DNA of 38,755 nucleotides from positions 1 to 38,755 of IMG/VR virus record IMGVR_UViG_3300021597_000025. One strand, written 5' to 3'. Shown here in pieces: positions 3,021 to 30,026 of the stretch. This stretch comes from a virus. The position numbers and the translations under genes are program-made. A model generated the notes under the pieces. That model was not told the DNA's origin, ran no database searches, and saw nothing but the letters and a program-made list of their open reading frames with translations. The stretch's first letter is position 1. Every line of letters starts with the position of its first letter.

Positions 3021-3979
3021 TAGAATTGCTCCATTAGTTCTGTGCCATTATGACTATGAAAAATGACTGTACCTTGTCCATGCAAATCTTGTGTTGTGTC
3101 ACTTGAACCGTTATGAATGTACATAGTTGTACTGCCTGTTAACGTGGTCTTTTTGGAAGTTGGATACGACACAGTCACCGTCAATGTACCCCCAGCAGGC
3201 AAACAACCAACTAAAGTTATAGTGCGCTCGTAGTCGCCGTACAATTGAATGATACAGTTTTTCTTCAACGCTAAATCAACCGAAAAGTCGCCATTCCAAT
3301 TGGAATATACGTACTGGGTATCATCTGCGCCAATTTCAGATGGCGTTGGCAGCGGATGATATGTGTCGTCAAACACACGCAACCATTCGCCCCATGTATC
3401 ACCATATCGACTTCGGTGAAAATACCCATTTTCGTTATAAGCATGATACGTTTGAAACGTCATAGTGCTGTCATTTGTTACAGTCAGTAACCCCGCGTAT
3501 GGGCACGGATAATTAGTGCCGTTCGACGCATAAATATTGGCGTGTTGCCTATACACACCTGTAGTCACATAGGTATTCAAGTCTTTATTGTCATTAATCA
3601 GCCCTTGAAATGTTACGTAGTCATCTTCTAGAGCGACGTTAACACCGAGTACTTGCACGCTTCGAAAATTAACATCTACTTCAGTTATATCTTCAACCGC
3701 AATCGCATTAGTCGCATTACGTATTTCTTCCGTCTGATTGCGTAAACCTTCCATGTATTCAGTCAATGCTGCAATATCAACATCACGAATTTGAATGATA
3801 TCGGCTTTAATCTGCGCTGCATCTTCGCCCGCTTGAAGCTGCGCATTAAACGCCAAGCCTAAGCTGTTGTTGCTGTCTTTTAACCAATTCAACTTACCCA
3901 AATAGCCATCGATTTGGCCGTGGGTACCGAAATCATTAATGGTAAACGACCATGCTACAGGTTCATATTGTTGCGTCAT
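3020..3979 (-). CDS. Tail fibre protein with pyocin-knob-type domain, 319 aa
   Basis: Residues about 50-95 are helical and probably coiled-coil. Residues about 133-204 match the pyocin-knob pattern seen in phage tail fibres: DLNTYVTTGVYRQ, then YAGLLTVT, MTFQTYHAYNENGYFHRS and GDTWGEWLRV. A linker with PLPTPSEIGA follows, then a beta-rich C-terminal domain of about 100 residues that could be the distal tip. The start ATG overlaps the upstream stop (TAATG). The likely job is receptor binding or carrying a receptor-binding tip at the end of the non-contractile tail. The knob is recognised by sequence phrases only. Confidence 0.78.
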   Translation of the reverse strand: MTQQYEPVAWSFTINDFGTHGQIDGYLGKLNWLKDSNNSLGLAFNAQLQAGEDAAQIKADIIQIRDVDIAALTEYMEGLRNQTEEIRNATNAIAVEDITEVDVNFRSVQVLGVNVALEDDYVTFQGLINDNKDLNTYVTTGVYRQHANIYASNGTNYPCPYAGLLTVTNDSTMTFQTYHAYNENGYFHRSRYGDTWGEWLRVFDDTYHPLPTPSEIGADDTQYVYSNWNGDFSVDLALKKNCIIQLYGDYERTITLVGCLPAGGTLTVTVSYPTSKKTTLTGSTTMYIHNGSSDTTQDLHGQGTVIFHSHNGTELMEQF

Positions 3980-4839
3980 TATGCTTCCACCAAGTGATAG
4001 TCACTCAAGAAATTGTTGTAAAAATTGCCTTCAAATTTGGGTAGTACTTCAAACTGGCATGCCATCGCATAGTGTCTTTCTTTTTGGCCTCCCGCTCCAG
4101 GAAACATAGATACATACCAATCGGTTGTTTCGTCTAGCAAGTTTATTGCGTTTACAAAATGAGGGCGGTCTTGTTCATTTAAGTGTTTTAAAGCGAATTT
4201 TAGTTCGCGCGGTTTAGCTGCTTTTTTACCGAATGCGGTACCGCCCATACTGCGCTTCTTTTTATTAGGGTTCGCTAACCATCCCATCGTATGGCCATAA
4301 GAAAAATTTACTCTTGGCTGCAATGCTCTACCAATATAAATCCTCGATAAATCAATAAAGCCTGGCACGTTATCAGGGTCGTTTAAAGTAATACGTACCC
4401 CGTGTGCTAATTGGGTATCAAACCAAATGTCGCTATCTTGGTATTTAGCGTCTACCGCCTTAGCAACAAGAGGATCAACTAACCACTCCAGTTCGCCCAA
4501 TGTTTTTTGCTCAATTGCTGGTTTTCCTGTTGGCCATAAATTATTTGAATCGTAGCCAACGTCTGTAAGCGCTGTGTCTTTAAATACTTCTATTCGCCAG
4601 GTACTAGAGCTACTCATATTATGACGACGTAACGCACAACCAGACAAAATACGCGGTTGTTGCCAAGTTAACGTCAACTGCACTTCATTGGTATTCGTTG
4701 AACGGTAATGGCGAGAATTGGAATACACCTGTAAATGACTTAGTGGTAATGAACCAACTTCGCCGCCCGCGATTAACGAAAGTTCGGCATCATCAAAATC
4801 GTTCACGATTAACATTCTTGCATTGGTCATTATCGCCAT
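3979..4839 (-). CDS. Tail tip/distal tail protein, 286 aa (putative)
   Basis: The protein contains TNARMLIVNDFDDAELSLIAGG, a central beta-rich part (VQLTLTWQQPRILSGCALRRHN) and a basic patch NPNKKKRSMGG. It resembles proteins found after the tape measure in Mu-like siphoviruses, but I cannot name the family. Two starts are possible: ATG at 4839 and ATG at 4830; the second gives the TAATG junction used by most neighbours. The gene is the second after the tape measure, so a place in the tail tip complex is likely. Confidence 0.7.
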   Translation of the reverse strand: MAIMTNARMLIVNDFDDAELSLIAGGEVGSLPLSHLQVYSNSRHYRSTNTNEVQLTLTWQQPRILSGCALRRHNMSSSSTWRIEVFKDTALTDVGYDSNNLWPTGKPAIEQKTLGELEWLVDPLVAKAVDAKYQDSDIWFDTQLAHGVRITLNDPDNVPGFIDLSRIYIGRALQPRVNFSYGHTMGWLANPNKKKRSMGGTAFGKKAAKPRELKFALKHLNEQDRPHFVNAINLLDETTDWYVSMFPGAGGQKERHYAMACQFEVLPKFEGNFYNNFLSDYHLVEA

Positions 4840-6242
4840 AATTCTAACGTTACCTCGCCATTTATTGGGTCGTCTGTCAGCGCTGTTACAATTGCTGTTT
4901 TCCCACTACTAAAACCGTAACCCCACGCGGTTACATTGATTTCATCGCCGAGTTCAAATAAGAATGGCGCACCGAATGCATTCACTTCGTATATCGTTCT
5001 TTTAACGCTGGCTGCGAGGGCTTTGCTACTTGCTAACGCTTGTGCATCTGTAAGCTCAACTAGGCACGTGTCAATCGTAATCGGCTGTGCATTGGGATAG
5101 TCAGGCAAGTCATTAACGGCTTCTACGCTTTGATACTTGTTGCTGAAAAGTTCCCGGGTCGCTGCGTCTATACTGCCTGCCAGAGCGCTACTTTGCTCAG
5201 TGTGGTTTTGGCGGTAATTAACGACTACCTTGCTAACAGGCTCTATCGTTTTTCTAATCCGTAAACCATTTTCTTGAATATCGTCAAGTGTGAGTTCTTT
5301 GGTAAAGCTATTGGTAAGTTCAGGCATAAGGCCAACATTAAATTGACCAAGACGCGAGTAATAATGATAGGCATTGCACGATGCACAAATTAAATCAATA
5401 AGGCCGCGAACTTTTTTGGGCTCCCGTTGATAAATTCCAATTTTAACGGTGGGTAATGACGACAAATCACCAATTTTTGTTTCGCTTGCAAAGCGGGTTA
5501 ACAACCACGAAATAACCTCTGCCGGGTATTGCAAATAATCACTTGGTTTTGCGCCCCGTACGTTGCAAGTAATTTTACCTGTTGGAGCTTGACTAAGGTT
5601 AAACGAACCATTGGCCACATCCTTAGTAAATGAAACAGATAAACCGTTATCTCGTACATCGGGTATATCATCAACCGCATCAAAATGGGCACGATATCGG
5701 TGCGTTGCCGCATCTTCAAGCACCGGCTCAATATTAAATACATCACCTACACACAACGGCTTGGCTTTGCCCTTGTTTGCACCAGTTGAAAATGTACCTG
5801 TATCGATCACCTTATCCAGTTTTAACGATGAGTCACGTGTTTCTATGCGAATCAAATCGTTTTGTGCAACAGCACGTTCTATCAACTGTTCACTTATTTG
5901 AATAAAGCTTGATAATGGCCAATCTTTGTCACCAATAAATAGCTCAACGGCTTGGTCAAAAACGTTGCCCGCAAGTAAGTCGTCTAACCAAGAGTGTGCA
6001 AATAACCCTAAAGTACTGCGGGCAGCACTTGTTCTACCAGTAAATATTCCCATGCGGCGGCTAAAACTTGGTGTATCCATCAGGAGTTCATCAAAAGCCT
6101 GATTCGCTGGCGTATCTTCAGGCAATGACGAATAAGAGTGCGTTCCAACATATGCTTGTTTGACACCACCATATAAATAGTTAATTTTGGCTAGTAAGCA
6201 ACGCTCTTGCCTCGGGTCTTTTAGCCATTGTTCAGGCGTCAT
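4830..6242 (-). CDS. Tail hub/tip protein, 470 aa (putative)
   Basis: First gene after the tape measure, to which it is coupled by TAATG at 6240-6244. It starts MTPEQWLKDPRQERCLLAKI. The mixed alpha/beta sequence without membrane segments contains FGAPFLFELGDEINVTAWGYG, a phrase like the beta-barrel found in tail hub domains. The size (470 aa) and place (directly after the tape measure) are those of the hub or distal tail protein in siphoviruses. No sheath, spike or wedge genes of a contractile baseplate were recognised nearby. The exact family is not identified. Confidence 0.68.
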   Translation of the reverse strand: MTPEQWLKDPRQERCLLAKINYLYGGVKQAYVGTHSYSSLPEDTPANQAFDELLMDTPSFSRRMGIFTGRTSAARSTLGLFAHSWLDDLLAGNVFDQAVELFIGDKDWPLSSFIQISEQLIERAVAQNDLIRIETRDSSLKLDKVIDTGTFSTGANKGKAKPLCVGDVFNIEPVLEDAATHRYRAHFDAVDDIPDVRDNGLSVSFTKDVANGSFNLSQAPTGKITCNVRGAKPSDYLQYPAEVISWLLTRFASETKIGDLSSLPTVKIGIYQREPKKVRGLIDLICASCNAYHYYSRLGQFNVGLMPELTNSFTKELTLDDIQENGLRIRKTIEPVSKVVVNYRQNHTEQSSALAGSIDAATRELFSNKYQSVEAVNDLPDYPNAQPITIDTCLVELTDAQALASSKALAASVKRTIYEVNAFGAPFLFELGDEINVTAWGYGFSSGKTAIVTALTDDPINGEVTLELWR

Positions 6243-9200
6243 TATGCGTGCCTCTGTAATTTTTCTAATTCATCGAATTGACGTTCGATCGTCGTATTTC
6301 CGTCAATGATTGATTTTTTCAGTGCATTTAATTCTGTTTGTGACTGCTTTGAGTGTTCTTCTGCCTGAATGGCGCGCTGTTCCATCAATTGCAATTGCTT
6401 CTTATTGGCACTGTTCATCGCCTTCATTTCAGCCAGCATGGCGTCATTCGTATTTTCTGTTGGTTTTGGCGGATGGATAAATGGCGTTGTTATTTTAATA
6501 ATGGGTTGAGAATTCGTTTTAGCGGCAATCACATCAAGTATTGCGTTTTGTTGTGCCAAAATATTGTTTGTGGCCTGAATGGCAGATGTCTGACTGACTA
6601 ATTCTGCCTGTAATAATGCAGTATCATTGGCTAATTGTTCATTCAAGGCAACCATCGCCAAATCAAACTCGCTCTCGCTTTGGGCTTCAAGTTCCGCGGT
6701 TAGTTCTTTCAGTTCGAGTAATTTTTCAATCGTAGATTGTTGTAGAGTTTCTACCGCTTCATTGTGTTTTGAAATGGCAGCAGGTACAGGCGGTGCAATA
6801 GGTTTACCTGGCGCTGAAACTTGCTGATTGCCAATTGTGTTGTAAGCATCATAAACACGGTCAAAAATGGCTGTGAATTGATCACTGCTCGCATAAAAGC
6901 TTTGTGCTTCTTTTAAGTAGTTACCGCCAGCATTCGACAATTGACTTATCGCATCAGCATCACCTGCGTTTGCGCGAGCTAATATGCTGTTGAATTGGCT
7001 TTGCGCTTCATCAAATCGTTGTTGATTGGTCAAGGGGGAGAAATCTGAAAGCAGCAAGTCATCAGCCGCTTGTTTTAGTGATTCAATGACCTGACGAATG
7101 CTGTTGTAAGCATCCAACTCTAGCTGGTAACGATCGTTTATTTGTGCAACTTGGTTATCATAGGCAGCTTGAGCAGCGTCACGCGCTGCGTTGAGTTTAT
7201 TTAGCTCGGCATTGTATTTGTCGTTATAAGCTTGCTCCAAATTACTTATGTTCGTAATTTGGTCTTCAATGCTGCCTTGGCCAATTAAATCAGTAAAGTT
7301 AGCTATTTGCCCCGACTGATAACCGACTTCATTCCAATTAGAACCTTGTCGACGTATCGCTAGAATACTGTTACTTAAGCTTGCACCAAGCGTTGCAAAC
7401 GACTGCTTAAGTCTATCGCTATCGGCTACTAGCTGATCTACCGAACGTTGATAGGTGTTATTGATATTAGCTAAAGCGTCATCAACAATTGCTTGGCGTT
7501 TTTTAGCATAAAGTTCTTCGAGTAAAGCGGTATCGGCACCAAGGGCTTCAGCTTCTGCGCGATAATCGTCAAACTCCTGTTGTAAATTCAATAACTGCTC
7601 TTGCACAGGGGTCATATCCATACGCGCAATTTGCTCAGCAAAGCTCTGAGTAAAATCAGCTCTCGCTTCTGCTAATTCCAATTCAGCTTTAGCCGCTTTC
7701 TCGGTTTGTTCCAGGTTCTTTTCAAGTTGATCATAATATTGGTCAAGCGAGCCAACCATGCCCATTAAAGAGGCATACAGCGACTGACCTGCTTCAGTGG
7801 TTAAATCAATCCCCGTAAGCAATAGCTTAAACTCGTCGCGGGTGGTAGGCAAAGTTTGCTCTAATCCAGAAAACAAGCTACTTAGTTGGTTTTCAAGATA
7901 GGTAAATTGTTCTTCGTCGGTTAAAAATTCATTATAGTAGGTATTGGTGTATTCTCTGAAGTTTTCTAGCCCACCCATTAAACCAATAATTGACTGAGCA
8001 ATATCGGTCTGCACTTCTTTGGATATATCGCCAAAGCGTGACAACTGGTGTCCCATTGCTTCAACCGCGCCGTTAAATATCGCTTGTTCCTGCGCAACTC
8101 GAACGAGTGTTTCATATAACCCTTCGCCTACCTGCTGGTACTTGGCGATTTGCGGTACCATATATTGCACCATTAAATCGGCTTGTTGCGACACCATCGC
8201 TTGCAATGCTTGTTCGATTTCATCGCCTGTCATGTCTTTAAATGACATTTTCGGAATATTGATTTTGAAATTCTCTAAGCTTCTCGTTGCCCCGTCTGTT
8301 AAACCGTTAGTAAACGCATCAAAATATTCATCTAAGTGCGAAAACTCAGTATTCTTGTATTTGTCTTCGCCGTAAGCAAGGTCAAATATACTTGCTCTAA
8401 AGTTTTGTGTTTCTTTGGCAATTTCTAGCCCGAGAATGTCTATTGCTTCATTGGTGCTGTTGGCAATGTCTTTGAATATTAGTGCCAAACTGATACCAAA
8501 GCTGGTATCCAAATTTTCGTATTCCGTACCGGTTTTCGAACTTGATTTTAGTCCCCACCAGCTCGATTTTTTGGTTTTGATGTCAAAGTACGCTTGTGCA
8601 TCGACTAAGCCACTTTCAATGATCTCACCTAACGTTTGGCCAACTATTGAAATACCTGAATCGATGAGTGATTTTTTAGTCTTCGAAAAACTACCAACAA
8701 TACCAGATACAATACCCGTTGGATCGAGTGAGCTCAGCAATCCGTTATCATCAAGCCAGACATTACCAGTGCCTGTTTTAACTGTGCCTAATTGTCCTCC
8801 ATAATTGTCCTCGTCAAACGTACCAAAACTGCCAATTAACCCAACAGCCAATTGGGTAATATTGCGATTCAAACTATTTAGTGACGCATTCATTTGTTGT
8901 AGTTCTGCGTACTTTTTAAGTTCTAATTCTTCAGCACGTTCAAAGCTGTTGAGCACAGAATTAGATACTGCATCACTATCACCAAACACAGTGCCAGTTC
9001 CTTGGCTGCTTTGACGGTCAGCAGCAGTATTGCCACCACCAGCTCCCGAACTAAAACCAATTCCTGCGGCACCTAATACGCCAGCCATTAATGCTGCCAT
9101 TGCTAGTACCCGCGCGGGAGCGGTGTATGGGTCACCGCTGGTACCCGCATTGGTGATTGATTCAGTCGCATTTAAAATTGATTTTTCAATACTTAAAACC

Positions 9201-11410: not shown

Positions 11411-12323
11411 TGTCTTGCTTTCATCGTATTGTACGTGGCCAAAAATGCGTGCTCTAAAATATCCATTCCTTCCCAAAGCAGTTCGCTAGCTTCATTCGAA
11501 AGTTGTCGATACCATGATATTTTTCGTGCTCTTGCTTCAATCATTGCTATGTCTAAGTAGCAGGGCGTTGCTTCCATTCCAACCCTATGCCAATATCGCT
11601 GCACCTTATTGAAGAAATAAACTGTTAATACGTTGCCTGGCTGTATTAAAGGCATGTCTTCGTTTTGCTGGTCTTGCGCAATAAGTACTTCGTTTATTTC
11701 TTCTTGCGCAATGCCCATACTTTGTAGCGTTTGCTCTAGCTCGTTTACATTCATGTCGTCGGGTTCTACAGAAAATGTACGACAAGCTAAGTATTCAGCT
11801 ACTTCAGTTAGTTTCCCGCCATCAACTTACTGAGCTTTTCATTTTGTTTTTTATTAATTTCATCGTTATAAACGTCGGCGACACATTCACGAATTAATTG
11901 AATGTCTAACAACGCTGCAATGTTTTCTTTTGTACATTGCAACTCAGTTTCACCATTTAAAAATGGAAGTGGGTGTTTAGGGTGTTTTTCGAATCCGACA
12001 AAGTACTGCTGAATAAATTGACGAGTAACTGCTTTTGTCGCTTCTTTAATCGCTGCTGACTCTTCGAACGTTGGCTTGTCCTGACTCGTGCCTTCGTTGT
12101 ATGCCTTTTCTCGCTTTTGCAATTTAATGTTTTGTTCGTTCAATTCAGCTAGGCGTTTTTGGTGTTTTTCGCGCTCTTTTTCGGACACATTAACGAATAC
12201 ACCAATAAAGTGCGCATTGTCGTATTGTATTTCTCCGTTTTCGTTAATGTTTTCGCTTGGGAAAGGTACGGTTACTGCTTTCTTAAAGCGTCCTTTAATT
12301 AGGTCTTGAATTTGAAATTGCAT
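11407..12323 (-). CDS. Tail assembly chaperone, long -1 frameshift product (G-GT type), about 305 aa
   Basis: This is the fused reading of 12323-11811 followed, after a -1 slip, by the frame that runs from 11811 to the TGA at 11407. The second part is open without a stop through LTEVAEYLACRTFSV to the ATG at 11754 and on to ATYNTMKARQ. The slip site GGGAAAC (minus strand, 11817-11811) sits in the correct phase, with AAC as the last codon before the zero-frame TAA. In lambda and many other siphoviruses the tail chaperones G and GT are made this way just before the tape measure gene, as here. The T part (134 aa) is alternatively an independent 115-aa gene from 11754, but no Shine-Dalgarno sequence is evident there. 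Confidence 0.8.
11808..12323 (-). CDS. Tail assembly chaperone, short product (G type), 171 aa
   Basis: The zero-frame product starts MQFQIQDLIKGRFKKAVTVP, has a charged helical middle (KEREKHQKRLAELNEQN) and ends KLMAGN at the TAA of 11810-11808. Its place between tail tube and tape measure and the frameshift signal at its end identify it as the siphovirus tail chaperone. It helps to keep the tape measure soluble and assist tube polymerisation and is not expected in the mature tail. The upstream terminator hairpin (12350-12376) may lower its transcription relative to the tube protein. Confidence 0.8.
   Translation of the reverse strand: MQFQIQDLIKGRFKKAVTVPFPSENINENGEIQYDNAHFIGVFVNVSEKEREKHQKRLAELNEQNIKLQKREKAYNEGTSQDKPTFEESAAIKEATKAVTRQFIQQYFVGFEKHPKHPLPFLNGETELQCTKENIAALLDIQLIRECVADVYNDEINKKQNEKLSKLMAGN
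11811..11817 (-). other. Programmed -1 frameshift slippery heptamer GGGAAAC
   Basis: On the minus strand the codons read GCG GGA AAC TAA; the heptamer G GGA AAC fits the X XXY YYZ rule in the zero frame. After slipping back one base the next codon is CTA at 11811-11809, exactly in frame with the 11407-11754 ORF (57 bases, 19 codons, to its ATG). I see no obvious strong downstream hairpin. Confidence 0.85.
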
Positions 12324-15090: not shown

Positions 15091-16011
15091 TTAGAGCTGC
15101 TCAGCTACTAGTAGGTCTAATTTACCTTTCAGTTCGTTGTCGACTGCTACACCGCCTTCATTGGTAAATTCACGTGCCAATAGTTTGGTTGCAGCTTTTT
15201 CGAGCGTTCCTGGTACGACCATCAGGTTTGGTTTAAGACCAAGTTTACGCCCACCATCAGCAGTGTATGAGCGCATTAGTTCCATGGCTTTCCACAAGTT
15301 GTCCGCATTACATTCTGCTTTTACGGCAATCGCCATTTGCCAGAAGCCGTAGCCTTTACCTGCACGTAAATCAATACCGTAACGAAACTCTTTTTTGGTG
15401 TAGACGTTTTCGTCATTGACGCTAGTCATTGCGATGAATTGCGCTTTCTTACGTTCCTGATAAATAAATGGCTTCAGTGCACGACTTGTACACATCACGT
15501 ACCAAGTAGGGCCAGTATATGTACCATCAACAATCATGTTAGAGACACTGGTGTCTGCACCTGAACCATCCACTTCAGCGTTTACAGGGTGGTCGGTGTC
15601 AAAGAAATATTGCCCGTCGTAACACTCCGTAGTTTCACCTGCGGCAAGCTGAGGAAATATAAATTCGTCAGGAAACATTTTGGTTGCTCGACCAGCTTCT
15701 TCGAACATCGGATTAAAAATGCCAAGTTGTTCGTCTTCAATTGAATTGCGGTCAACAGCTACGGAACTTTCAAAATCTTTGTTCGCGATTTGGTAGGCTT
15801 TTTCTTGCATTGATTTGTGTTGGCGTTCACCAATCCACTCACGAAAGCCTGGCCATTGGCCTAACCAGCCATAAGTGTTAGTTGCGGTAGTCGACGGAAT
15901 AATCGAGGCAATTTTCTCAAATTGCGGTTCTGCGCCATCTAATCCCTTTTGAAAGTTCTTGTGAAAGCCTGTACGCAATGAATTTAATAGAGCAACAGTA
16001 ATAATAGCCAT
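15091..16011 (-). CDS. T: Major capsid protein, Mu gpT type, 306 aa
   Basis: The protein opens MAIITVALLNSLRTGFHKNFQ, followed by PSTTATNTYGWLGQWPGFREWIGER, the signature of Mu gpT major head subunits; DTDHPVNAEVDG and LMVVPGTLEKAATKLL are also typical. The length is normal for the family. ATG at 16011 has AAGGAG nine bases upstream. It follows the protease/scaffold gene by 1 base. It forms the icosahedral shell assembled around the scaffold encoded upstream. Confidence 0.95.
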   Translation of the reverse strand: MAIITVALLNSLRTGFHKNFQKGLDGAEPQFEKIASIIPSTTATNTYGWLGQWPGFREWIGERQHKSMQEKAYQIANKDFESSVAVDRNSIEDEQLGIFNPMFEEAGRATKMFPDEFIFPQLAAGETTECYDGQYFFDTDHPVNAEVDGSGADTSVSNMIVDGTYTGPTWYVMCTSRALKPFIYQERKKAQFIAMTSVNDENVYTKKEFRYGIDLRAGKGYGFWQMAIAVKAECNADNLWKAMELMRSYTADGGRKLGLKPNLMVVPGTLEKAATKLLAREFTNEGGVAVDNELKGKLDLLVAEQL

Positions 16012-17856: not shown

Positions 17857-18300
17857 CTAGTTGTGAATTTCAATATCTAAATGGTCGTGAAGTATGTTAA
17901 GTACTTCGTCACGCTCAAATGGTGCAATACCCAAGAACGGTCGTGCTGGTATCTCGTCACGGCCAAATTGATGCGTTGCCGCATACTCCATATTCGAGCC
18001 TATCAACAGTGCGTCAGTTTCAAGCTGATAGCTGAGGGTATCGGCTAATGTACCAGATTCGGTAAGGATGCGTTCAGGTCGCTTTTTCTTTGCAATGGTT
18101 GCCAACTCTAGCGGTTCCCATGGGCTGCCATCGGGGGCTTGCATATCAACAAAGCGTTGCTGCGTAGACTCAACCAGGTATTCACCAACTTCACGAAGCG
18201 CAGGCTCTAGGTTTTGCCCTTGCTTTAGCAATTTATTGATCGCCTTGGTTAATGATTTTAGCCCGCGAAATTCGACTTGTATAAAGCTACCCGCCATCAC
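17857..18300 (-). CDS. G: Virion morphogenesis protein, Mu gpG type, 147 aa
   Basis: The protein has the gpG/tail-completion phrases LREVGEYLVESTQQRFVDMQ, PDGSPWEPL and YAATHQFGRDEIPARPFLGI, which are diagnostic. In Mu-like phages this small protein works at the head-tail junction during assembly. The start may be GTG at 18300 or ATG at 18297; the stop of the upstream gene overlaps (TAGTGATG). Length is normal for the family. Confidence 0.9.
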   Translation of the reverse strand: MMAGSFIQVEFRGLKSLTKAINKLLKQGQNLEPALREVGEYLVESTQQRFVDMQAPDGSPWEPLELATIAKKKRPERILTESGTLADTLSYQLETDALLIGSNMEYAATHQFGRDEIPARPFLGIAPFERDEVLNILHDHLDIEIHN

Positions 18301-24848: not shown

Positions 24849-25084
24849 TGGTAATTCCTTTGTGAAACAGTTTGTTGCTGAAGAGGACTAGCACCGCAGG
24901 CCTTAGCAATTGCGACGTCAATATCAATTTGCGTTACACTATGCCACCCTTTAAAAAATTGATTGCGTTGCTCTATGCGCCTATATACACAACGTGCAAT
25001 GACTTTTTTGCCAAGCAGAGCGCGATCAATTTCAGCGCGCAAACGAGCATTGCGACCTTCATTTAAGCGTGCTACAGACTTCAT
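24836..25084 (-). CDS. Unknown basic protein after endolysin, 82 aa
   Basis: The start is set at the ATG of 25084 (MKSVARLNEGRNARLRAEID) because AAGGA lies 7 bases upstream and it overlaps the endolysin stop as TAATG; a longer frame from 25132 would overlap the endolysin by 49 bases. The protein is basic, helical at the N-terminus, without a membrane segment or signal. No family recognised. It lies in the lysis block. Confidence 0.62.
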   Translation of the reverse strand: MKSVARLNEGRNARLRAEIDRALLGKKVIARCVYRRIEQRNQFFKGWHSVTQIDIDVAIAKACGASPLQQQTVSQRNYQCNL

Positions 25085-25626
25085 TACGTAATCCTTATGT
25101 GCTTGAAAATGCAAAAAGCTCGCTTTACCCAACCATTTAGAAAAACCGCTTGAGAGGGAGTTGACTGCACTATGTTGACATAGTGCTCAATGCGCTTTTG
25201 CGTAAATGTTACACAGAGCAGCCAGCAATCATTGTCTGATAGTTCACGAGCAGCACTTAACGTGCGCTCGCCAATTATTCCGTCAACGGTAACGTTTAAT
25301 AAGCTTTGAAGCGTTTTACGCGCAAATTTACCGCCTTGGTTGACTGCGGCGTCAAAAATAATTAGCGCAATATCAGGGGGCAGCAGGTGACAGTAGTTTT
25401 TTAACCAATAATCCTGATAGTAAATATTAGCGGCTTGTGCAGCAGATAGGTCAGCAATATCGAGCTCAGGGTACCAGCGGCTTGATATACCAAAATTGGT
25501 TTCACCTCCGCGATCACTGGCGTGGTTAACATAGCCTTGCTCTTCTTCAAGAACACAAGCTATCGCAATACGCGCATTGCGAGGTATTTGCTGATCTATG
25601 AGCTTGTAGTAGTCATGTCTGTTCAT
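25084..25626 (-). CDS. Endolysin, glycoside hydrolase family 108 type (N-acetylmuramidase), 180 aa
   Basis: The motif EQGYVNHASDRGGETNFGIS (residues 29-48) is the GH108 active-site signature; E29 aligns with the catalytic glutamate. YWLKNYCHLLPPDIALIIFD and VNQGGKFARKTLQ are typical, and the part around VDGIIGERTLSAARE is the peptidoglycan-binding-type end of the family. There is no signal peptide, so export would depend on a holin. First gene of the main late unit, about 32 bases after the late-activator motif at 25658. Confidence 0.93.
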   Translation of the reverse strand: MNRHDYYKLIDQQIPRNARIAIACVLEEEQGYVNHASDRGGETNFGISSRWYPELDIADLSAAQAANIYYQDYWLKNYCHLLPPDIALIIFDAAVNQGGKFARKTLQSLLNVTVDGIIGERTLSAARELSDNDCWLLCVTFTQKRIEHYVNIVQSTPSQAVFLNGWVKRAFCIFKHIRIT

Positions 25627-25657
25627 GCTGTCAGATTGACAGCAATTATTTCACTAA

Positions 25658-25681
25658 AATATTAACCTGAGTTAATAATTT
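25658..25681 (-). promoter_or_regulatory. Late-activator (Mor/C-like) binding motif, copy 2 (Plys)
   Basis: On the minus strand it reads AAATTATTAA, CT, then CAGGTTAATATT. It overlaps the last codons and the stop of the sensor gene and ends 31 bases before the endolysin ATG at 25626. The same spacing to the start codon as copy 1 (31 bases) strengthens the case for a promoter element. TTAACCTGAGTTAA (other strand) is symmetrical at both ends. Confidence 0.72.
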
Positions 25682-28526
25682 TCGACTTTATCGGTTCATA
25701 ACTTTTAACTAGAAGTGGCAATGTGACTTTTATACATGTTCCGACGTTGTTGTAGCTTTCTACATCGATCGTGGCTTGTAAGCGTGCAGCAATCAACCGA
25801 ACTTGATATAGCCCAAGATTTTTTTGGTTAAAGTCTTTTTTAGATAATGAAATATTTTCGATATTAAGTGAAAGACATAAGTGATTCTCAGTCGTTTTAA
25901 TGTTGATGAAAATATCGGTTGCCAAGAGCTGTTCAATGGCAAACGTAAGTAATTCATAACAACTCTTATACACGCAAAGCAATATATTGTCGTCATGGAG
26001 AAGGGGGTTAAACGCGATGGGAGTCTTGTTGTATTGCAAGTAAACAAAGGCGTGATTCGCTCGTTTATTTACAACCATTTGTTCAATCGCTCTAGCTAAA
26101 TCATCACCTATAAAGATATCTGGCATTGAGAGAATAGCTTCAATGTTGAGCTGTTGAATGACTTCCGCAATAGCAGCTTTAGCATCCACCGTTCGTTCGA
26201 TATCAAGCAGCGCCTCTATTTTAGTTAGATTACTAATTAATGGCTGATATTCTTTGGTTAGCTGATAACTATTGCTCTGATATAAATCATTAACCAACTT
26301 AGCGTTGCTTAGCTCTAAGGCATTAGTTATGGTTGAAAGGCGCTTTTTGTAGTCGCTAACAACTTTGGCATTGAGCTGCAAGTTCTCGTGGTTAATCTTG
26401 GTTATTCGCTCGGTGAAATACTGCTCTTGCGCATTAAAAGCTTTACGATTCTGTTGAACCCAATAAACCAGGTACAGCAACAAACCAATACCCGTCAGTG
26501 TTAATACTGCTTTAGCGAACAACCCACCATACCATGGTGTTTCAACAAAGAATGTAATTTCTCTATGCAGCGTTTTTTGACCATCCTTAGCGGTAATGCT
26601 AACAGTGTTTTTTCCAAAAATGGGGCGAAAACTCACCTTGTTAATGTTGGATATTGACCCCCAAGGCTGACCATTAACATTGATACCGTATTGATGAGCG
26701 ATTGGATTTTGGTAACTGTTTAGACTTACCGCCAATTCGACCGATGCATCACTACTAAGTACATGTGCTAAATCTGTATGTTTACCGTTTACACTAAAGC
26801 GACTAATCTTGATCGCGGTTTCATAATCTTCTCGCTTAGAATCAGTTGACCAAGATACTCTTTCTCCTAAGCTAGTTATCGCCTGATAGCGGCTGATGCG
26901 ACCAACACTATACCCTAAAGGCCATACTTGGCTCTCTTTAGTTGAAGCGTTATAGATGCCAACACCTAATGAAGTCGCTACATGTATCCTACTCCCCTGT
27001 AAACTTATGTCATGAATACGATCGCCGATTCCAAAGAATGGAATAGTGACAATGACTGCACCTGAATTCTTACTATCGATCTCAAAAAGGCCATCATTCA
27101 ACGTTGCGATATAGATCTTGCTTTGGTGCTCCAAGAGCCTGATAGCATGAGATTCTGCAAGATACGGGGTAAATTCGCCACTTTCAAATTGATAAACACC
27201 GTTATCAGTTGCTAGCCAGGCATTGTTCCAATCACCATTAATAGCAAGAAAATCAACCACACTGGTGATCGCTGGGTTTTCAATTTTATCGACCACACGT
27301 TCAACGTTAACGTCTATAATGTATACGCCATCATTAGCGACGCAAACAGCAATTATGTGGCCACCGAGTTCTTTGATACATTGCACCGGGTTATTACTAA
27401 TCAAATGCGTAAAATTGATTACTTCATCTTTTTCAGGATCTGCCTTGAACAACCCATAATAGCCACCTAACCAAAAGTCGTCCCATTCCAGTGATGCTGC
27501 GTAAATATGTCCTTTGGTTTGCCGGCTAATATTTTCCAATCTGCGTGCCTGCGTCCCTTCTAGCTGATATACACCACCTATATCAGCCAAATACTCCTTG
27601 CCACTATCATTCAGAAACCAAGCCATCCCTGACGTATCACCAAGCCCTTGAACTTTTTCAACATTCAAAGTTGAGTTCGTCAACTTTTCGACATGCGTGC
27701 TCGCTAACCATAAAGTATCATCTGCGCTTTGAAATACATGATATATTGGTGAATCGAATTTACGTTGAAAGTTATGCGGGGTCTCTTTAAGGCTACGTAA
27801 ATCATAGCGGGTCATACCCTTAGGAGTAACCGCCCAAATAATGTCGTCATGTTTATTCGCGCTTACTTTTCTCACCGTATTTACGTAATTAACCACTGGT
27901 AACAATTGTGAATGAGCTAACTTCAAAAGTTGCGTCTCGGTTGAAAAATAAATGACACCGTCTTTGGCAAACGCTGAATGAATCACGCCTTTTGTTGCCA
28001 TTTGTTTATAGGGCGCACTATCCTCCAAACAGGTTACATTGGAACCGGCAGTAACACACACTTGGCCGTCAGTTGCAATTACCGTACTACGCTCACTCTT
28101 TTCTAGATAGAGCATATTTTCATGTTGTAAGTGCGAGTTATTGATATTAATACGTATAAGCTGGGTTTCTAGCAAAATGTACAGCCAATTGGTATTAACA
28201 GAAACATCAACAATTCGGTTGTTTTTATGCGTATCAAAGATGCGTTGTTCATTTTGCTGTTCGTCGATGCGTACGACAGTGAGGTTAGAAGCCGCAAATA
28301 CGGCGTTGTTGGCTGAAATAATTTTATTGATGTAGCCCAAGTCACGAGCAAAATTTGTGAGGTGGTGACCGTCAAAACGAAGCACTTCAGATTGAGTACC
28401 TATCCAAATAAAGCCCTCGTTATCTTGTGTTATATACCTTGGCAAAGTAATGGAAAGCTCGTTTGCAAAAACGTTGCAAACGAGCATTGAAATTATCAGT
28501 AAAAATCCCTGTACTACTCTTAACAT
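25662..28526 (-). CDS. Membrane sensor with periplasmic beta-propeller, Y_Y_Y-type domain and degenerate histidine-kinase module, 954 aa
   Basis: Signal peptide at 1-21 (LLIISMLVCNVFA), then two-component-regulator propeller repeats starting with RYITQDNEGFIWIGTQSEVL; a Y_Y_Y-like domain at about 590-660, PWYGG near 664, a transmembrane helix at about 668-690, then a cytoplasmic coiled coil and a NarX-type kinase region. The kinase is degenerate by eye: where H-box proteins read RDLHDGLGQ this one reads NDLYQSNSY (Tyr749 for His), the N-box Asn is replaced (ELLTF, Phe862), and the DxGxG loop is absent, although the G2/C-terminal phrase NLGLYQVRLIAARL..VGTCIKVTLPL is kept. No response regulator is in the window. 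It is accessory (moron) DNA between repressor and endolysin. Confidence 0.88.
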   Translation of the reverse strand: MLRVVQGFLLIISMLVCNVFANELSITLPRYITQDNEGFIWIGTQSEVLRFDGHHLTNFARDLGYINKIISANNAVFAASNLTVVRIDEQQNEQRIFDTHKNNRIVDVSVNTNWLYILLETQLIRININNSHLQHENMLYLEKSERSTVIATDGQVCVTAGSNVTCLEDSAPYKQMATKGVIHSAFAKDGVIYFSTETQLLKLAHSQLLPVVNYVNTVRKVSANKHDDIIWAVTPKGMTRYDLRSLKETPHNFQRKFDSPIYHVFQSADDTLWLASTHVEKLTNSTLNVEKVQGLGDTSGMAWFLNDSGKEYLADIGGVYQLEGTQARRLENISRQTKGHIYAASLEWDDFWLGGYYGLFKADPEKDEVINFTHLISNNPVQCIKELGGHIIAVCVANDGVYIIDVNVERVVDKIENPAITSVVDFLAINGDWNNAWLATDNGVYQFESGEFTPYLAESHAIRLLEHQSKIYIATLNDGLFEIDSKNSGAVIVTIPFFGIGDRIHDISLQGSRIHVATSLGVGIYNASTKESQVWPLGYSVGRISRYQAITSLGERVSWSTDSKREDYETAIKISRFSVNGKHTDLAHVLSSDASVELAVSLNSYQNPIAHQYGINVNGQPWGSISNINKVSFRPIFGKNTVSITAKDGQKTLHREITFFVETPWYGGLFAKAVLTLTGIGLLLYLVYWVQQNRKAFNAQEQYFTERITKINHENLQLNAKVVSDYKKRLSTITNALELSNAKLVNDLYQSNSYQLTKEYQPLISNLTKIEALLDIERTVDAKAAIAEVIQQLNIEAILSMPDIFIGDDLARAIEQMVVNKRANHAFVYLQYNKTPIAFNPLLHDDNILLCVYKSCYELLTFAIEQLLATDIFINIKTTENHLCLSLNIENISLSKKDFNQKNLGLYQVRLIAARLQATIDVESYNNVGTCIKVTLPLLVKSYEPIKSKIINSG

Positions 28527-28538
28527 TCAAAATAGCTA

Positions 28539-29090
28539 TTACCTTACGTCAGGATGATTGTATCCCCCACAGGTAGCCATCAATACGGGCGCATCTTCAA
28601 CACCGAGCACTTTTGCTGACGATCTCAAAACACCTCTAAACGATGACCTACTAGCTCCTCCCTTTAACTTATGCTGATTACTTTCTGGTGGCTTAATCAT
28701 AAGGAAAGTAGGCAATCTCGGATCGTCCGGATTAACTTTGTTATTCCACATTTGATAAACACTATCACCCACTTTGGGATAAAGCGCTGCCATACCAGCT
28801 TGCATCACTTTTACCGCTTCGTCCCCAAATACTAAAGCCTGCACACCATTGTAAAAACTGTCGGGTGTGCACAAATCAATATTATCTACTGTTATGCGCT
28901 CTCCGTCGGGCAACTCTAGCTCGACACTTATGTGCACTACCTTAGCTCGGTTAACCTGCGCTTTATTTGCTACCTTGGCTACTGCTTGATCGGAAGTAAC
29001 CACAGAATCCGTTGCTGCACTCGTTGTCATTACTGAAAGTGCCATCACTGATGTTACGCACAACGTTAGTATTTTTTTGCTTAGTCGCAT
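28539..29090 (-). CDS. Secreted protein of unknown function, 183 aa
   Basis: A signal peptide is visible at 1-26 (MRLSKKILTLCVTSVMALSV..TSAA). The mature part has an amphipathic beta segment (KVVHISVELELPDGERITV), a helical part around MQAGMAALYPKVGDSVYQMW and a basic patch HKLKGGASRSSFRGVLRSS. Two cysteines in the mature part (LCTPDS and MATCGGYNHP) may form a disulphide. No family recognised. GGAG lies 7 bases before the ATG. The sensor gene begins 12 bases after its stop, so the two are probably cotranscribed from the motif at 29168. Confidence 0.75.
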   Translation of the reverse strand: MRLSKKILTLCVTSVMALSVMTTSAATDSVVTSDQAVAKVANKAQVNRAKVVHISVELELPDGERITVDNIDLCTPDSFYNGVQALVFGDEAVKVMQAGMAALYPKVGDSVYQMWNNKVNPDDPRLPTFLMIKPPESNQHKLKGGASRSSFRGVLRSSAKVLGVEDAPVLMATCGGYNHPDVR

Positions 29091-29167: not shown

Positions 29168-29191
29168 AATATTAACCTGGCTTAGTAATTT
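29168..29191 (-). promoter_or_regulatory. Late-activator (Mor/C-like) binding motif, copy 3 (accessory cassette)
   Basis: On the minus strand it reads AAATTACTAA, GC, then CAGGTTAATATT. It starts within the repressor stop codon and lies 78 bases before the start of the secreted-protein gene. It predicts that the cassette is transcribed with the phage late genes, by analogy with Mu Pmom, the fourth C-activated promoter that drives an accessory gene. Confidence 0.68.
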
Positions 29192-29672
29192 AAACGTTCG
29201 ATTGCGCTTCTGCTACAGCTCTCAAAACCAAATCAACATCAGCGCCAGCTTTATTGTACTTTATGTAAGTCTTAATCATTGTCGTTAATGATTTTTCATT
29301 CACTGACAATTGAGAGCGTTCCATCACTGGCAAAATTTTTAACATCGCAGCTTTAATCAACTCTTCAGCATTATCATTGTCTTCAACTTTTGATTCGCTA
29401 ACACTTGATGGTGTACTTTTAGAGCCCTTAAAAAACCAATTCAAGTCAACATCGTGTTTTATGCAAAAATCAATCAATGCGGCTTTTTGCATGGTCTTCC
29501 TCGCTTTCCAAGTAGCAAATGTACTTTGTGAAACACCAAGTGCTTCTCCGAGAATTTTGTCCTGATTGGTCGTCGAATGCAGCGACGGCACCGCCTCTTT
29601 CATGCGACCAATAGCAAAATCAAAGTTATTTAGCTCATTTGCGATATTCTCTATTGCAGTTTCGATATTCAT
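29190..29672 (-). CDS. Phage repressor, CI-type helix-turn-helix domain, 160 aa
   Basis: Residues 38-83 form the repressor HTH: DKILGEALGVSQSTFATWKARKTMQKAALIDFCIKHDVDLNWFF (matches the bacteriophage CI-repressor HTH style). The remaining half has no LexA-type Ser-Lys peptidase motif, so induction by RecA self-cleavage is not expected; ends with a helical region that could oligomerise. It is divergent from the Ner-like gene, with operator-like repeats between them. Little Shine-Dalgarno sequence is seen before the ATG, which suggests weak translation or a leaderless mRNA. It would maintain lysogeny. Confidence 0.85.
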   Translation of the reverse strand: MNIETAIENIANELNNFDFAIGRMKEAVPSLHSTTNQDKILGEALGVSQSTFATWKARKTMQKAALIDFCIKHDVDLNWFFKGSKSTPSSVSESKVEDNDNAEELIKAAMLKILPVMERSQLSVNEKSLTTMIKTYIKYNKAGADVDLVLRAVAEAQSNV

Positions 29673-29759: not shown

Positions 29760-30026
29760 ATGGAATTTGAAGCTATTAAACAAGAGTTAAAGGCGAATAG
29801 TTGCTCAATTGCAATCATCGCCCGCTCTCTCAATAAATCTCACACCGCAGTTACTGACGTTGCTAAAGGCGTCAGCACCAGCAAGACAATAGCGAAAGCG
29901 ATTTGTGTTGCGCTCAATAGACCTATTAAGGAAGTGTTTCCAGATAAGCCTAGCTACCACACCAGCGAGCGCTTCAACTCTAAGAGCGAGCAAAATAATT
30001 ACTGGCAAAGCAAGCTTGCTAGCTGA
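29760..30026 (+). CDS. ner: Ner-like early regulator, helix-turn-helix, 88 aa
   Basis: Residues 15-60 (CSIAIIARSLNKSHTAVTDVAKGV..TIAKAICVALNRPIKEVFPDK) have the HTH pattern of Mu Ner/Nlp proteins, with the typical IAxALxxxPxExxPxR-like end. In Mu, Ner represses both early and repressor transcription after infection. First gene of the early operon, opposite the repressor, matching the Mu layout. AAAGG is 8 bases before the ATG. Confidence 0.85.
   Translation: MEFEAIKQELKANSCSIAIIARSLNKSHTAVTDVAKGVSTSKTIAKAICVALNRPIKEVFPDKPSYHTSERFNSKSEQNNYWQSKLAS

Follow-up and report, generated by a model that had tools for sequence, protein, structure and literature searches.

Features of the locus

The window, that is the whole stretch of DNA analysed here (record IMGVR_UViG_3300021597_000025, 38755 bases), is a marine Mu-like phage that encodes a MuA-type transposase, terminase subunits, a tape measure protein and an endolysin. 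Its early genes lie on the plus strand from about position 29760 and its late genes on the minus strand. A repressor, a small ORF, a large sensor gene and the endolysin follow one another, in this order, on the minus strand. The features considered are the following:

29190 to 29672, minus strand: phage repressor of 160 amino acids with a Phage_CI_repr HTH (PF07022, 30.4 bits against a cut-off of 22) and no S24 peptidase domain
28539 to 29090, minus strand: small partner protein of 183 amino acids, with a signal-peptide-like N-terminus, two conserved Cys and a C-terminal CGGYNH (alignments A1, A3 and A5; gene pairing)
25662 to 28526, minus strand: propeller and transmembrane sensor of 954 amino acids with a degenerate kinase region (ORF with ATG start; Reg_prop match; relatives and alignments)
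26802 to 28463, minus strand: periplasmic propeller region, roughly residues 22-575, with approximate borders inferred from alignment (Reg_prop at residues 31-45)
26442 to 26522, minus strand: predicted transmembrane helix, about residues 669-695 (hydropathy maximum at residue 669)
26280 to 26282, minus strand: Tyr749 (NDLYQSNSY), at the position of the phospho-accepting His or close to it, in a register uncertain by a few residues
25707 to 26111, minus strand: predicted degenerate Bergerat-fold (HATPase_c-like) domain, about residues 806-940 (residues 117-251 of the model; match to the VraS profile)
25941 to 25943, minus strand: Phe862 (ELLTF), replacing the N-box Asn (alignments)
25626 to 25644, no strand assigned: perfect palindrome TGCTGTCA-N3-TGACAGCA, between sensor and endolysin
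25084 to 25626, minus strand: endolysin with GH108 and PG_binding_3 domains (Pfam; PHROG 315), the far border of the cargo site

The palindrome, of 19 bp with 8-bp arms, occurs as a single copy in the window and may serve as an operator or a terminator stem, or have arisen by chance; with up to 3 mismatches allowed, 0.26 matches are expected by chance and 24 of 100 shuffled sequences held at least one. A promoter scan of the window returned fewer sites than the shuffles (7 vs 13.8) and a terminator scan more (10 vs 4.4), and neither was used as evidence. No Response_reg match was found across the whole record, whereas 12 of 14 control genomes matched, in agreement with the first-pass annotation, which had seen no response regulator in the window. 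That annotation missed the partner gene and the linkage to the repressor, and these are the more informative facts.

The kinase-like region of the sensor

The N-terminus of the sensor is hydrophobic at residue 2 according to hydropathy, and a single Reg_prop repeat (PF07494) was scored in the propeller region, with 21.8 bits against a cut-off of 20.4. The Y_Y_Y domain expected before the membrane helix was unmatched in the window sensor; in two relatives it scored 29.2 (L078) and 25.9 bits (L050) against a cut-off of 26.6.

The first-pass annotation had described the protein as a pseudo-histidine kinase, with Tyr749 at the phosphoacceptor position, Phe862 in place of the N-box Asn, a missing DxGxG loop and a retained G2-like phrase, and all of these residues were recovered. 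In the alignment of 70 sensors the N-box column holds Phe in the window sensor and the DxGxG columns read I, N and S, while NLGLYQ and VGTCIKVTLP represent the G2-like phrase. The only histidines beyond residue 690 are at positions 713, 825, 844 and 882. Because none occurs in the DHp segment between residues 713 and 825, the absence of the phospho-His is independent of the alignment register, whereas the pairing of Tyr749 with that position is approximate, the AlphaFold2 model of the region having a pLDDT of 57. The HMM comparison that the annotation had proposed led to the same picture: HATPase_c reached 16.6 bits, under its cut-off of 26.4 (E 0.011), HisKA and HisKA_3 gave no Pfam match, and both the H and the N boxes were lost. 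No DHp/HisKA family match was obtained in any of the 11 sensors scanned with Pfam (the window and ten relatives).

Structure prediction, likewise proposed, recovered a CA-like fold, though in a weak model (the same pLDDT of 57) that we rely on only jointly with a profile match. The profile of the kinase region (A8, 11 rows, from eleven relatives) matched the VraS CA domain with an E value of 1.1e-12 and DesK with one of about 4e-7. The model of the C-terminal region aligned with VraS at a Z score of 15.0 (rmsd 2.8, 132 residues aligned), with DesK chains at about 14, resembling DesK in its phosphatase state, and with the DivL structure 4q20 at 14.0; its residues 117-251 aligned on the CA domains of histidine kinases at Z scores of 13-15. 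Since VraS and DesK are HisKA_3-class kinases, these profile matches and model alignments argue for a HisKA_3-class kinase fold in the C-terminal region of the sensor, which is predicted from sequence and model to be a Bergerat (CA) domain. The earlier label of "NarX-type" therefore holds at the level of the class. The missing catalytic residues support the pseudo-kinase claim, and the analysis suggests signalling through contact with other proteins and not through the transfer of phosphate.

A conserved gene pair

A tblastn search with the sensor over 395 genomes from the family centred on a Colwellia genome (G016) gave long matches, and a small ORF lay directly before the sensor in 10 of the first ten loci opened (L043-L050, L052 and L055). 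The small-protein profile A5 matched at 69 places in 67 of these 395 genomes. In a whole-class sample it matched in one of 369 genomes, which was already known, and an earlier profile, A3, had found matches in 7 of 394 genomes of the order. The 69 places, together with the window, L006, L013 and two loci of G700, form a set of 74 loci, in 70 of which a sensor ORF of at least 600 amino acids lies directly downstream of the small gene on the same strand. Among the other four, L079 and L165 are truncated at contig ends; a sensor is missing from both L162 and L163, and L163 also contains an internal stop. On host chromosomes the pair lies mostly between ubiF-like and miaB genes, and the exact MiaB motif was found at 53 of the 74 loci; about 60 chromosomal copies are without an adjoining repressor, in a count for which not every neighbourhood was inspected by eye.

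Some further loci deserve mention. Many genomes of the Colwellia family have the pair at a conserved chromosomal site, the miaB/ubiF interval (e.g. at L078 and L068-L071). At L162 a small protein with a signal peptide (7717-8262, minus strand) stands without a sensor; ORFs nearby, identified by eye, are ParDE-like and LytTR-like. L053 and L054, which gave long sensor matches, come from genomes outside the set of 67 in which the small gene was found, resemble propeller proteins of a generic kind and were rejected.

Single sequences were poor queries. The window sensor found nothing in phages or in viral contigs, and its matches to genome contigs were driven by the propeller repeat alone. Against 15 related phage records it gave no match at E <= 0.1, yet this was a false negative; among those records the small gene is present in L005, L006 and L013 and the sensor in L006 and L013. 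The small protein had no match in phages and plasmids, and that of L072 no relative in a viral scan.

The small protein gave only weak, scattered matches and no family in Pfam, NCBIfam and PHROGs, and a search of solved structures returned nothing beyond one hit at chance level (E 0.33). An AlphaFold2 model of it, with a pLDDT of 39, was discarded. Fourteen diverse rows of alignment A5 share Arg48, Trp115, Lys118, Pro127-Thr128, Cys174-Gly175 and His179 (window numbering). The window protein has these invariant residues and its gene lies directly upstream of the sensor gene, which is how we define the module. Even apart from the phage part, a conserved gene pair, present in 67 of 395 sampled genomes of the Colwellia-centred family, is now defined with invariant residues. 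A signal-peptide-like N-terminus was seen at 13 loci, eight in phages and five in chromosomes, in a scoring by hydrophobicity alone, under which five loci scored as having none (L114, L122, L127, L156 and L159) are hydrophobic over a stretch that precedes the conserved start. The second Cys stands exactly 27 residues after the domain start at all 13 of these loci and at none of the 61 others, a pattern that would fit a disulphide formed in exported copies only. The small protein of the miaB-locus type, represented at the 61 loci that lack a signal peptide (L078, 8749-9198, minus strand, is an example), seems to be cytoplasmic; some 35 residues at its N-terminus are conserved, and its paired sensor keeps the propeller and the membrane helix.

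Loss of catalytic residues and selection in the family

The first-pass annotation had also proposed to look for a pattern of loss in homologues, and the pattern is pronounced. The combination of N-box Asn and DxGxG is absent in 63 of the 70 aligned sensors and kept in seven (L077, L074, L006, L013, L148, L157 and L158), so that the pseudo-kinase description extends to a family. Sixty-two of the 63 have other residues at one or both motifs, and L073 is without the whole region. The seven relatives with both motifs imply that ATP binding is probably ancestral. They fall in two places of the sensor tree, a quick tree with long branches built without the kinase columns and with L073 left out, and several losses therefore took place if the intact state is ancestral. 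At L073 the sensor (5207-7543, minus strand) and the small gene (7416-7922, minus strand) lie away from any repressor; the sensor ends after the coiled coil, and no kinase remnant was found in three frames past its stop.

Selection was compared for nine non-overlapping pairs of copies from chromosomes, each copy with a dead kinase, by a simple Nei-Gojobori procedure in which some dS values exceeded 0.7. The pairs L006-L013 and L157-L158, which are intact ATPases, and the saturated pair of the window and L075 were excluded from this count. The dN/dS ratio ranged from 0.00 to 0.14 over the last 215 residues vs 0.07 to 0.29 in the propeller, the kinase region being lower in 9 of 9 pairs; the result covers chromosomal relatives, the window copy being without a close relative. 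Since the dead region is more constrained than the propeller in these relatives, it does something there, which disfavours the earlier suggestion that the protein may only sense in the periplasm.

Linkage to the repressor and exchange of cassettes

In the window the repressor gene immediately precedes the pair and has the same orientation. The pair, or at least its first gene, is present in ten phage or prophage loci (the window, L075, L077, L074, L148, L006, L013, L072, L168 and L169; L077 is the same prophage as L059 and L074 the same as L080, while L168 and L169 are contig fragments). In each of the ten, the next gene upstream has the same orientation and is a repressor or stands in the position of one. 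They do not amount to ten independent events, as L006, L168, L169 and L013 are one lineage. Phage_CI_repr scored above its cut-off in the upstream gene of the window, L075, L077, L074, L013 and L169 and below it in L148; the genes of L006 and L072 were unmatched and were assigned by alignment with the L013 repressor and by position only, respectively, and L168 has a partial gene. In L006 and L013 the repressor stop adjoins the start of the small gene. Fifteen loci had been retrieved for the similarity of their transposases, and 3 of the 15 have the module: L006, L013 and L005, from whose contig L169 also comes. Several of the others are too short to include the site. As L005, L006 and L013 were retrieved by that similarity alone, the sample is partly unselected for the module.

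S24 repressors are cleaved in a RecA-dependent manner. The S24 domain is absent from all 9 module-linked repressors and present in 3 of 7 repressors of module-less relatives, a contrast that we treat as a hint only (Fisher one-sided about 0.06, few lineages, and an unsure choice of repressor ORF in L058). Short repressors without S24 also occur in the module-less phages L003, L014 and L016. A shared fold of the repressor C-terminal halves was looked for between the two phage groups and none was found beyond the HTH. The site behind the repressor carries other cargo in related phages.

Two comparisons document exchange at this locus, the first a backbone swap in one pair and the second a single recombination event. 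L006 and L009 are 95-98% identical over most aligned blocks (L006 3-2824 and 8502-17219), with smaller gaps at 11997-12243 and 15445-15630 and a last short block, 18037-18193, at 90%. Positions 2825-8501 of L006, which hold two early regulators, a repressor without S24, the small gene, the sensor and one further ORF, have no match in L009, where the corresponding stretch (3553-7846) encodes an autocleavable-type S24 repressor and other genes. In the second comparison L167, which is the L006 contig, and L169 are 43-60% identical over the DNA before the repressor and over the repressor HTH. From the linker onwards, through the C-terminal half of the repressor and the small gene, they are 98-100% identical after one step at 91%, and the high identity continues until the L169 fragment stops, shortly after entering the sensor gene. 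The recombination point lies in the interdomain linker of the repressor, at about position 7775 of L167, and only the HTH and the upstream regulators were exchanged. Judging from these sequences, the DNA-binding specificity was swapped and the second half of the repressor stayed with the module.

Interpretation

The reading that we favour, tentatively and at somewhat less than even confidence, is that the pair is a non-phosphorylating envelope sensor carried in an exchangeable immunity cassette and probably acting on the repressor. What the sequences provide for it is that the pair is conserved, follows a repressor or repressor-positioned gene in ten phage loci and in one lineage moved together with the C-terminal half of the repressor, and that the sensor has lost its catalytic residues. 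The small exported protein would act on the periplasmic propeller as a ligand, a lid or a chaperone; the signal may then cross the membrane through the coiled coil and the DHp-like helices by a conformational change, and the dead kinase region would hand it over by contact with another protein, in phages most likely the repressor. Maintenance and induction of the prophage would then answer to the state of the envelope, beside or instead of DNA damage. Against this stand the roughly 60 chromosomal copies without a repressor, from which it follows that the core function of the pair needs no phage repressor. Further points against it are that the small protein has no signal peptide in most chromosomal copies, that the C-terminal halves of the repressors showed no relation between the two phage groups, that the evidence for exchange comes from a single recombination event and a single pair of backbones, and that short repressors without S24 also occur in phages lacking the module. 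The more demanding proposal, that repressor-linked modules are a transmembrane, phosphate-free input to the repressor, travel as a cassette with its C-terminal half, replace RecA/S24 autocleavage and read the envelope, is rather unlikely.

Those chromosomal copies lend weight to lysogenic conversion, in which the pair would be expressed with the repressor in lysogens, act on a host regulator or on the host copy (as a decoy or in a mixed dimer) and alter the envelope behaviour of the host, leaving phage immunity unaffected. We regard this as possible, if on the unlikely side. The pair exists without phage genes in many host chromosomes (the 53 of 74 loci with the MiaB motif), two of the four lysogens in the family search (G138 and G142) hold both a prophage and a chromosomal copy, and other cargo occupies the site behind the repressor in related phages; however, the lysogens G036 and G248 have no chromosomal copy, and free cargo would not be expected to be inherited together with the C-terminal half of the repressor, although linkage alone would suffice to produce this. 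The position next to the repressor at a variable cargo site and the predicted envelope location would also suit superinfection exclusion or another anti-phage defence, by which the pair senses envelope damage from incoming phages and blocks or kills. This we consider improbable: PADLOC matched no defence model in the six proteins scanned except for a weak coiled-coil match to ZorA (E 0.0015), the pair has no effector domain, and the majority of chromosomal copies occupy a fixed housekeeping locus.

Two further explanations concern the kinase region itself. Its catalytic residues might be displaced and the protein still act as a kinase or phosphatase on a host response regulator, as the seven relatives with Asn and DxGxG and the likeness of the model to the DesK phosphatase state could indicate; the lack of any His in the window DHp segment, the failure of all 11 sensors to match a DHp family and the absence of a response regulator from the record make this very improbable. 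We give the least credence to the region being junk in the course of loss. L073 has lost it whole and several lineages have lost catalytic residues, but the window ORF is full-length and the region evolves under dN/dS ratios below those of the propeller in the nine chromosomal pairs. Should the favoured reading of an envelope sensor acting on the repressor be true, a catalytically dead kinase would couple a prophage switch to the envelope, and the family, whose ATPases are living in some members and dead in others, would allow output without phosphotransfer to be dissected. L006 and L009 are a natural near-isogenic pair of Mu-like phages with two immunity cassettes, on which the question is directly testable.

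Comparison with known systems

Our search of the literature, which included few subscription journals, found no phage-borne propeller pseudo-kinase and no repressor-linked transmembrane sensor. With the Reg_prop/Y_Y_Y two-component sensors the window protein shares a signal sequence, a propeller, a membrane helix and a C-terminal kinase-like region. Those sensors generally carry HisKA/HATPase domains and often receiver or regulator domains; in contrast, the window protein has an unrecognisable DHp and a dead ATPase, and it comes with a conserved, dedicated gene for a small partner. The CA-domain fold and sequence profile are shared with the HisKA_3-class kinases DesK and VraS, but the window sensor has none of the phospho-His, N-box Asn and DxGxG of a functional kinase of this class and, unlike DesK, VraS and NarX, no linked response regulator.

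The external cue that a temperate phage gene could bring into the lysis-lysogeny switch recalls VqmA of phage VP882 and the arbitrium system. These phage decision systems read outside signals through soluble receptors of small molecules or peptides, whereas the window would have a transmembrane sensor with a periplasmic protein partner.

The closest parallel for the output is DivL of Caulobacter, which has a Tyr at the phospho-site and no kinase activity and gives its output by partner binding (PMC4211667). DivL is a PAS-based host cell-cycle protein that keeps its N, G1, F and G2 boxes and has DivK~P as partner (PMC4211667). The window sensor resembles DivL in having Tyr749 near the place of the phospho-His within a predicted kinase fold. 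It departs from the DivL pattern of a Tyr at the phospho-site with the other histidine kinase boxes kept: it has lost the N box and DxGxG, carries a periplasmic propeller, is paired with a small protein and is phage-borne.
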